DNA from: Azoarcus sp. CIB
GTDB taxonomy: Bacteria; Pseudomonadota; Gammaproteobacteria; Burkholderiales; Rhodocyclaceae
DNA: 64,000 bases
Assembly (NCBI RefSeq): GCF_001190925.1
Contig: NZ_CP011072.1
Coordinates: 3,472,001 to 3,536,000 of the forward strand
Direction of reading: 5' to 3'
The first letter of the stretch is position 1; the number at the start of each line of letters is the position of its first letter. The position numbers and the translations under genes are program-made. Of the stretch, positions 7,341 through 9,358 are shown in pieces. Below the pieces are notes generated by a model that was given only the letters and a program-made list of their open reading frames with translations, had not been told where the DNA came from and made no database searches.

Positions 7341-8765
7341 TTAAGCGTGAGCGGCAGCAGGGGCGACCACGGGCGCCTCATACGCCTTCTCGCCCGCCAT
7401 CGTCTTGACCATGTTGTAAAACATGATGAGCATGCCGCTGAAGAACATCACACCGCCCGCCAGGCGGATCGCCCAGAACGGATAGCTCGCCTTCACGCTC
7501 TCGACGAAGGAGTACGTCAGCGTGCCGTCCGGGTTGGTGGCGCGCCACATCAGACCCTGCATCACACCGGCGATCCACATCGACGCGATATACAGCACGA
7601 TGCCGATCGTCGCGATCCAGAAGTGGGTGTTGATCAGCCCGACCGAGTACATCTGGGTCTTGCCGTACATGCGCGGGATCAGGTAGTACATCGAACCGAT
7701 CGAGATCATTGCGACCCAGCCGAGCGCACCCGAATGCACGTGACCGACGGTCCAGTCCGTGTAGTGCGACAGGGCATTGACCGTCTTGATCGACATCATC
7801 GGACCTTCGAAGGTCGACATGCCGTAGAAGGACAGCGCGGTGATCAGGAACTTCAGGATCGGGTCGGTGCGCAGCTTGTGCCACGCACCCGACAGCGTCA
7901 TCACGCCGTTGATCATGCCGCCCCAGGACGGCGCCAGCAGGATCAGCGAGAAGATCATCCCCACCGATTGAGTCCAATCCGGCAGCGCGGTGTAATGCAG
8001 GTGGTGCGGACCCGCCCACATGTAGGTGAAGATCAGCGCCCAGAAGTGCACCACCGACAGGCGATAGGAATAGACCGGACGCTCGGCCTGCTTCGGCACG
8101 AAGTAGTACATCATGCCGAGGAAGCCCGCGGTCAGGAAGAAGCCCACCGCGTTGTGGCCATACCACCACTGGATCATCGCGTCCTGCACGCCGGCATAGG
8201 CGGAGTAGGACTTCGTCAGGCTGACCGGCAGCGCGGCGCTATTGACGATGTGGAGCAGCGCAACCGTGAGGATGAAGCCGCCGAAGAACCAGTTCGCAAC
8301 GTAGATGTGGCTGGTCTTGCGCTTCGCGATCGTGCCGAAGAACACGATCGCGTAGGACACCCACACGACGGCAATCAGGATATCGATCGGCCACTCGAGC
8401 TCGGCGTACTCCTTACCGGACGTGAAGCCCAGCGGCAGGGAAATCGCCGCCAGCACGATCACCAGTTGCCAGCCCCAGAACGTGAAGGTCGCCAGCCCGG
8501 GCGCAAACAGCGGCGTGTGGCATGTCCGCTGCACGACGAAATACGAGGTCGCGAAGAGTGCACAGCCGCCGAAGGCAAAGATCACGGCGTTAGTGTGGAG
8601 CGGGCGCAGCCTGCCGAAATGCAGCCACTCGCCCAGATTGAGCTCGGGCCAGACAAGCTGTGCCGCGACGATCACCCCCACCAGCATGCCCACCACGCCC
8701 CATACGACGGTCATGATGGAGAACTGGCGGACGACGTTGTAGTTATAAGTCGCCTGCGATTGCAT
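7341..8765 (-). CDS. ccoN: cbb3 cytochrome c oxidase catalytic subunit I
   Basis: Heme-copper oxidase subunit I of the C (cbb3) family, 474 aa with about 12 transmembrane helices. It reduces O2 to water at high affinity and pumps protons in the inner membrane. Histidines seen at expected places include H57 ([10 protein letters not shown]), [24 protein letters not shown] (CuB) and [17 protein letters not shown]. It is first in ccoNOQPGH. The 5' region up to ccoS is 389 bp and contains an FNR-type box, a terminator and a direct repeat, so expression is probably oxygen-regulated. Confidence 0.97.
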
Positions 8766-8879
8766 GGAACTCCCCTTGAGATGAAGAAAACTTCAGCACC
8801 AGTCCGGGAGAGCATGTGCAACGGCTCGCCACGGACTCGTGACAACGGCCGACATTCTATTGCACTGCAGTAGTGGGTG

Positions 8880-8904
8880 AAAATACCCAATTACAAAAAA
8901 TACC
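8880..8904 (-). promoter_or_regulatory. Direct repeat upstream of ccoN
   Basis: Two identical 8-mers (GGTATTTT in the minus-strand sense) lie 17 bp apart at 8880-8887 and 8897-8904, about 115-140 bp before the ccoN start. They lie downstream of the terminator, where a second ccoN promoter would be expected. They could be a response-regulator binding site. I cannot name the factor, and no convincing sigma-70 -35/-10 pair is visible nearby. Confidence 0.3.
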
Positions 8905-8953
8905 TGTTGTCAGCATGGTTTTAATTACTTCATCATAACCCATGCGATCGGGC

Positions 8954-8983
8954 AAAAAAAAAGGGTGCGCATCAAGCGCACCC
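8954..8983 (-). terminator. Intrinsic terminator in the ccoN upstream region
   Basis: In the minus-strand sense, GGGTGCGC and its perfect complement enclose a 5-nt loop (TTGAT), followed immediately by nine T residues. This is a textbook rho-independent terminator. It lies between an FNR-type promoter and ccoN, so it would end a short transcript or attenuate ccoN. Confidence 0.85.
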
Positions 8984-9060
8984 CCAACCCCAACAGAGAG
9001 ACAAAAATTCCTTACCAGATTGGCGCGATCGAATCGCGACGCACCAATCTCGAAAACCGT
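8954..9060 (-). ncRNA. Candidate FNR-controlled small RNA or attenuated ccoN leader (~107 nt)
   Basis: The transcript is predicted from three features: an FNR-type box, a -10 element placed for a start at 9060, and a strong terminator ending at 8954. Besides the terminator, the RNA has a 5' stem-loop at 9017-9050: outer 7-bp stem AGATTGG/CCAATCT and inner 6-bp stem CGCGAT/ATCGCG, with a one-sided bulge. A G/U-rich single-stranded linker joins the two. A possible 10-codon TTG-started peptide ends inside the terminator loop, so leader-peptide attenuation is an alternative to an independent sRNA. No similarity to a known RNA family is claimed. Confidence 0.5.
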
Positions 9061-9066
9061 AAGAAA

Positions 9067-9072
9067 AGTATG
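9067..9072 (-). promoter_or_regulatory. -10 element of FNR-type promoter
   Basis: CATACT in the minus-strand sense. If transcription starts at 9060, this hexamer is at -12 to -7 and the FNR-type box is centred at exactly -41.5, the standard class II activator geometry. Confidence 0.5.
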
Positions 9073-9094
9073 CCAATCCTCGTTCTCCGGGGCG

Positions 9095-9108
9095 TTGACG
9101 TAGGTCAA
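9095..9108 (-). promoter_or_regulatory. FNR/ANR-type binding site
   Basis: TTGAC-(4 bp)-GTCAA is a perfect inverted repeat that differs from the FNR/ANR consensus TTGAT-N4-ATCAA only at the symmetrical inner base. It lies in the gap between ccoS and ccoN, where oxygen control of cbb3 genes is expected. Its distance from ccoN (330 bp) is unusually long. Confidence 0.7.
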
Positions 9109-9154
9109 CAAACCCCTCGCGATACGCGGAGGAGACGTTTCCCTGCCGCGAAAA

Positions 9155-9358
9155 TCACTGCTTTCTGACCTGCGAGGGAGTGTCATCGGACTGTCCCGGT
9201 TTCGGACCTTCGGGCAGGTCGCGGTCGTCCATCAGCATGCGATAGGCGGGACCTTCCATGTCATCGTACTGCCCCGAGCGCAGCGACCACCAGAAGATCA
9301 CGCCGATCACGAACACCAGCACCACCGAGAGCGGCACGAGGATGTAAAGACTTTCCAT
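9155..9358 (-). CDS. ccoS: cbb3 oxidase maturation protein CcoS
   Basis: A 67-aa protein of the CcoS/FixS family, needed for heme and copper insertion into cbb3 oxidase. The N-terminal transmembrane helix spans about residues 4-24, followed by WSLRSGQYDDMEGPAYRML, the family signature. The acidic C-terminus is cytoplasmic. It begins 6 bp after the ccoI stop, the usual ccoIS pairing. Confidence 0.93.
   Translation of the reverse strand: MESLYILVPLSVVLVFVIGVIFWWSLRSGQYDDMEGPAYRMLMDDRDLPEGPKPGQSDDTPSQVRKQ

Follow-up and report, generated by a model that had tools for sequence, protein, structure and literature searches.

AniS of Neisseria is an FNR-dependent betaproteobacterial small RNA (sRNA), and FnrS of Escherichia coli is the trans-acting sRNA to which we liken the element described here. 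This element lies between ccoS and ccoN in a stretch of 64,000 nucleotides of Azoarcus sp. CIB (assembly GCF_001190925.1, contig NZ_CP011072.1, positions 3,472,001 to 3,536,000; henceforth the window) and is, with high probability, a small RNA gene that has its own FNR-dependent promoter and acts in trans like FnrS. Anaerobically induced sRNAs of Pseudomonas are PhrS, which is ANR-dependent (PMC5703892), and PaiI, which depends on NarXL. S17S/bdhR1 of Bordetella and Burkholderia (RF02278), also reported in Aromatoleum aromaticum EbN1, is described as having an invariant 27-nt stretch, targets near ribosome-binding sites, a position next to coq7 in Bordetella, a sigmaA-type promoter and RNase E processing (PMC11722255). 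In Azoarcus sp. CIB itself PN is activated by the FNR-type protein AcpR, whose site there is centred at -41.5 (PMC6678401).

All features of the locus are on the minus strand of the window. The predicted sRNA is about 107 nt long (8954-9060), with its start at 9060 deduced from class II spacing and its end given by the T run. The FNR box of its promoter, TTGACCTACGTCAA (9095-9108), is centred at -41.5 relative to this deduced start, i.e. at a class II position, and is accompanied by the -10 element CATACT (9067-9072), which reads GGCATACT in aligned members of the genus and is ATACT- or ATAAT-like in most of the representative loci described below. The RNA would consist of a 5' hairpin (AGATTGG...CCAATCT, 9017-9050), which is variable in sequence and length among loci, a seed defined by alignment of the loci (GUCUCUCUGUUGGGGUU, 8986-9002), and an intrinsic terminator (8954-8983), which, judging by sequence, would make the RNA a discrete one: a stem-loop GGGTGCGC-TTGAT-GCGCACCC (8963-8983) with an 8-bp stem (8963-8970/8976-8983) is followed by nine T residues (8954-8962). 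An earlier note on this DNA had pointed to the box as a perfect TTGAC-N4-GTCAA repeat, to the CATACT that places its centre at -41.5, to the terminator ending at 8954 and to the second stem-loop at 9017-9050, and each of these is present. The geometry matches that of the AcpR site, and thus the RNA most likely works like FnrS. The pattern TTGAY-N4-RTCAA occurs at 26 sites in the 5.26-Mb genome, a single contig of 5,257,030 bp, compared with 3 for the reversed control; the sRNA promoter was missed by a simple scan for sigma-70 promoters. Folding of 8953-9060 yielded -43 kcal/mol, whereas dinucleotide shuffles had a mean of -29.5 (z -4.3, 0/200 shuffles that low). We also observed that the predicted 5' end, AYGGUUUU (window 9053-9060), is common to most members of the genus; it might be a second pairing site.

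By the tests made, the sRNA is not a homologue of FnrS, AniS, SorX or S17S. No Rfam family reached its gathering score in the window, and this holds for PhrS and PaiI, with which the sRNA would share anaerobic induction. The predicted targets are similar in kind to those of FnrS, but the seed, the place and the taxon are different; for the FnrS family, which Rfam contains, the scans gave nothing at gathering in the window and nothing up to E 5 in 8800-9200. AniS (RF02274) aligned weakly over its full length, with 21.3 bits compared to a gathering score of 50. SorX of Rhodobacter (RF02784) has CUCYCUGUUGG before the terminator in common with the sRNA (window 8957-9029) and stayed below its gathering score (24.9 vs 46.6 bits), as did SorY (RF02651; 29.2 vs 111); both are singlet-oxygen sRNAs, a class that differs from the one proposed here. 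S17S is alike in being a betaproteobacterial sRNA with an invariant stretch aimed near ribosome-binding sites. It is set apart by its description and by the RF02278 score (no match up to E 5 in 8800-9200), not by seed letters, and by the order sample, in which the model described next found just two strong matches beyond the family.

In a DNA search of 101 genomes, 52 matched. The locus of genome G001 was 98% identical to the window query and recurs without any difference in a contig of Aromatoleum toluolicum (NZ_WTVS01000012), which identifies the genus as Aromatoleum. In distant relatives the matched part (approximately query 124-181) comprised the seed and the terminator, excluding the promoter and the first hairpin. 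Of the 30 loci read, 28 had an FNR box at most 150 nt ahead of the seed. A covariance model of the 3' half of the sRNA (R1), built from 25 cores, matched 306/395 genomes of the family, representing 55 of 68 genera (E 0.001). When an order sample of 399 genomes was searched, 80 matched at E 0.01. Full-length and strong matches from other families were confined to G565 and G584; the remaining ones outside the family did not exceed 36 bits. These weak order-level matches were considered as sRNA homologues and rejected, as many of them cover the terminator part alone and one (G461) has a different seed and lacks the box. A scan of named genomes with the 18-mer TCTCTGTTGGGGTTGGGG found at least 121 exact matches in at least 119 stretches. 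Among the 121 matches listed, a run of six T followed in 112, an exact FNR box was present at most 230 nt upstream in 110, ccoS was upstream in 104 and ccoN downstream in 92, and the named records include Azoarcus, Aromatoleum, Thauera, Dechloromonas, Zoogloea and Accumulibacter. The nine listed matches without the T run were leaders of TusE/DsrC genes (L167 and L266, see below), chance or repeat matches (L169, L222, L256 and three in L268) and one sRNA locus with five T (L272). No viral contig and no plasmid matched in the sequence searches for phage or plasmid copies.

For a closer comparison 47 representative loci were used, 45 from family genera (of the 55 matching) and two from other families. 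Of these, 46 have an exact TTGAY-N4-RTCAA box no more than 230 nt upstream of the seed. In the 47th (L130, genome G044) the FNR box stands 748 nt upstream of the seed, before a gene of the OmpW family (PF03922) that ends almost at the seed with its stop codon, and L207 is organized in the same way, its box being at -768. The location of an OmpW-family gene between box and seed suggests that in these loci an ompW transcript driven by FNR has the sRNA module as its 3' end. As a separate observation, in G043 (L486) an ompW-like end was seen by eye before ccoN, without the sRNA. Across the representatives the predicted start lies up to 163 nt ahead of the seed and, at the other extreme, on the seed itself (L111, G056); since the latter position leaves no room for the first hairpin, this hairpin looks dispensable. 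Even so, a tendency to fold is seen in the 5' part, with a mean z of -2.2 in 45 loci and values below -2 in 24 of them.

The least variable part of the RNA is the seed. When 46 loci were aligned (L106 was excluded), 14 consecutive seed positions, UCUCUGUUGGGGUU, were invariant. In the terminator stem, changes on both sides were seen at 4 of the 8 pairs, and the covariation was 0.175 as compared with 0.068 for shuffles (0/500 as high), in an alignment that was fitted to the stem and is therefore biased toward it. Among 15 loci of the genus both-sided changes affected 6 of 24 predicted pairs, of which five belong to hairpin 1 and the sixth to the terminator, and several pairs of hairpin 1 were broken in one or two of the loci. 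The earlier note had proposed a covariance-model check of both stems; of these, the terminator shows paired changes across the family and the 5' hairpin is variable.

The same note had left open whether the element is a trans-acting sRNA or a conditional attenuator of ccoNOQP, in which the FNR promoter would serve ccoN and the terminator would set the level of read-through. The placement between ccoS (9155-9358; NCBIfam TIGR00847, 73 bits, above cut-off) and ccoN (7341-8765; TIGR00780, 784 bits, above cut-off) would suit such an attenuator. However, the terminator is followed by a second exact FNR box in 43 of 48 loci, in most cases 104-136 nt ahead of ccoN, whereas single-base shuffles lead one to expect it in 0.02 loci; this count comprised loci with ccoN in reach, five of them Aromatoleum, with L098, L103 and L128 excluded beforehand. 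It follows that ccoN usually has its own FNR promoter. Moreover, the three excluded loci kept the RNA without an adjoining ccoN: L128 has an NDK gene downstream, L098 (G175) has Rrf2, Crp/Fnr-type and hemerythrin genes in place of ccoN, and in L103 ccoN is 2.2 kb away behind a gene on the opposite strand. The separate box of ccoN and the persistence of the RNA away from this gene favour a trans-acting sRNA over an attenuator, and a simple terminator would not need an invariant stretch before its stem. The separation is less clean in the genus itself, where an exact second box was found in only 6 of 17 loci and was missing from the other 11, including the window; there the box before ccoN is degenerate (TCGGCCGTTGTCAC, 8839-8852, three of ten fixed positions off), and a contribution of read-through in the window's clade is possible. 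In the loci without the exact second box a conserved TAGAAT/TACAAT (TAGAAT at 8854-8859 in the window, TACAAT or TATAAT in other loci of the genus) stands upstream of the degenerate box and could be an FNR-independent -10 element of a ccoN promoter. We note besides that in several genera TGCAATAMAAT is found directly before the FNR box of ccoN (window 8854-8864), as if FNR overlapped the start of a second promoter.

Relatives without the sRNA can be read in favour of an attenuator, too: 15 of the 20 R1-negative family genomes searched have ccoN, and 11 of their 14 readable ccoN leaders contain an exact FNR box with no sRNA between box and gene. No convincing sRNA core was detected in these 14 leaders, in which three fuzzy matches had 4-5 errors. 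Locus L015 (G004), which we take to be that of A. aromaticum EbN1, has an exact second box, and if this assignment is correct, the formation of the Cco system in EbN1 does not settle the case of the window's clade. That the system was formed under the conditions studied is stated in the EbN1 study (PMC9765128). Taken together, the attenuator is improbable, and of the two options of the earlier note it is the sRNA that is strongly supported by the conservation, the FNR boxes, the invariant seed and the complementary sites before gene starts. Even less probable is a bare terminator of ccoIS with no functional RNA, the box serving another promoter. The element is indeed also downstream of ccoIS, but a bare terminator would not account for a seed that lies upstream of the stem and varies less than the stem, nor for its retention in L130 and L207, where a whole OmpW-family gene fills the interval between box and seed. 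As to the possibility that the RNA encodes a leader peptide or a small protein, the 10-codon TTG frame on which the earlier note had based possible leader-peptide control does exist in the window, as does an open frame of 109 amino acids. Yet a start-like codon with a stop within 13 codons was found in only 1 of 49 loci, and different codons occupy the start position (TTG 22, AAG 8, ATG 6, others). The frame is also broken where the G run differs in length by one base and by hairpin lengths that are not in threes. This form of control can practically be dismissed.

The trans-acting sRNA predicts pairing sites in mRNAs. The antisense of the seed, CCCCAACAGAGAGA, occurs with up to two mismatches at 21 sites in the window's genome (G000), one being the sRNA itself, and the reversed pattern at 12. 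Twelve of the other 20 sites precede a coding-like start, with L142 (+44) and L151 doubtful. The genes concerned include boxD and ispH (NCBIfam, above cut-off), a glutathione peroxidase-like protein (NCBIfam, below cut-off), an acylating acetaldehyde dehydrogenase (below cut-off, from a 70-aa piece) and, by Pfam, a glutathione S-transferase (GST), an ApaG-domain protein, a fadB-like enoyl-CoA hydratase/3-hydroxyacyl-CoA dehydrogenase and a tetrapyrrole methylase, cobJ by sequence reading. In a YfhL-type ferredoxin gene (NCBIfam, above cut-off) the complement is farther upstream and reaches the terminator arm, with a duplex energy of -55.4 kcal/mol; it was found in 10 Aromatoleum genomes. A second match of the sRNA in its own genome by BLAST, considered as a paralogous sRNA, proved to be the antisense of this ferredoxin leader. 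The leader (G000 C1:3196450-3196520; L119, L146) was also seen to have a hairpin of its own with the stem letters of the sRNA terminator, together with the long complement.

Sites with one mismatch were then compared in 61 relatives, after self-matches of the sRNA had been filtered out with an A-run rule and duplicate flanks had been combined. A coding-like start followed 33 of the 47 non-self sites, and 30 of the 37 within the family; ten of the 47 were outside it, three with a start. With a control pattern that keeps AGAGAGA only 7 of 30 read sites (of 41) preceded a start (Fisher p 6e-5 vs 33/47). Because related species repeat the same genes, the sites were also counted with one row per gene within the family, which gave 15/22 real vs 3/13 control sites before a start (p 0.012); in this count the L348/L364 permease was scored as not before a start, though the script gave L364 a TTG. 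The best target across genera is a gene of the TusE/DsrC family (TIGR03342 above cut-off, the TusE equivalog below). In its orthologues from four sRNA-bearing genera (L418-L421) the complement lies right before the ATG, with -35.2 to -41.5 kcal/mol, whereas the orthologue of G033, a genome with no R1 match, lacks the complement (-22.1 kcal/mol). In two named genomes (L167, L266) the perfect complement in the TusE/DsrC leader extends over at least 18 nt, the target leader alone being compared. The conserved seed is predicted to be complementary to ribosome-binding sites of targets that are mostly lineage-specific. Three candidates for wider conservation were rejected: boxD, with a site in 8 of 17 genomes of the genus, had it in 1 of 6 family-wide loci; the ferredoxin had it in 1 of 30; and aceA had a clear complement in G057, while among 30 orthologue leaders only L391 (G033, in which no sRNA was found) and L417 were below -30 kcal/mol.

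Several observations weigh against this interpretation. The lineage specificity of the targets, just described for boxD and the ferredoxin, is one of them. The invariance of the seed is partly selected for, because this very sequence served to find the loci; the comparison covers 45 of the 55 matching genera, and among the other ten are several low-scoring ones (for example g19, g91, g104) whose seeds may differ. The GGGGUUG part of the seed is mostly paired in the prediction (mean unpaired 0.39, compared with 0.60 for CUCUCUGUU). Because AGAGAGA resembles a Shine-Dalgarno sequence, part of the complementarity at gene starts is to be expected. The result obtained with one row per gene is modest and depends on a grouping of genes by hand, and if two rows orthologous to real targets are kept the control becomes 5/15 (p 0.039). 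Duplex energy by itself is not specific, as the aceA leader of the sRNA-less G033 reached -33.3 kcal/mol and the leader of a TusE/DsrC paralogue (L437) -32.5 kcal/mol.

For the trans-acting sRNA, we infer transcription, its FNR dependence, Hfq dependence and repression along the following lines. A drop in oxygen would cause FNR (AcpR in this group) to activate transcription from about 9060, and RNA polymerase would stop at 8954, releasing an RNA made up of a variable 5' hairpin, the invariant seed and the terminator. The seed, probably assisted by Hfq, would pair with several mRNAs at the ribosome-binding site or in the leader, blocking their translation; among the predicted targets are enzymes of aerobic aromatic catabolism, proteins for peroxide and thiol handling, and iron-sulfur proteins. 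More tentatively, and with somewhat less than even confidence, the element may be seen as a portable, family-wide anaerobic master sRNA, in which the invariant 14-nt seed and the terminator accept nearly any 5' part, be it a variable hairpin, a whole FNR-driven ompW mRNA whose 3' end becomes the sRNA, or nothing. Such a module would have recruited ribosome-binding sites separately in each lineage, those of aerobic, thiol and Fe-S genes; and in some Aromatoleum, where the FNR box of ccoN itself has decayed, read-through from it may supply ccoN as well.

We know of no earlier FNR-linked regulatory RNA in Rhodocyclaceae, and if the proposal is true, this would be the first. No published report of the sRNA was found in the literature searched, which left out most subscription journals; in the EbN1 systems study small RNAs are mentioned as a possibility (PMC9765128). 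The losses, insertions and ompW fusions make the locus a good case of a fixed seed with changing 5' part and targets. The carriers of the 18-mer named above are organisms of wastewater treatment and of anaerobic aromatic degradation, and for these the sRNA offers a testable hypothesis, namely that aerobic enzymes would be silenced post-transcriptionally once oxygen runs out.
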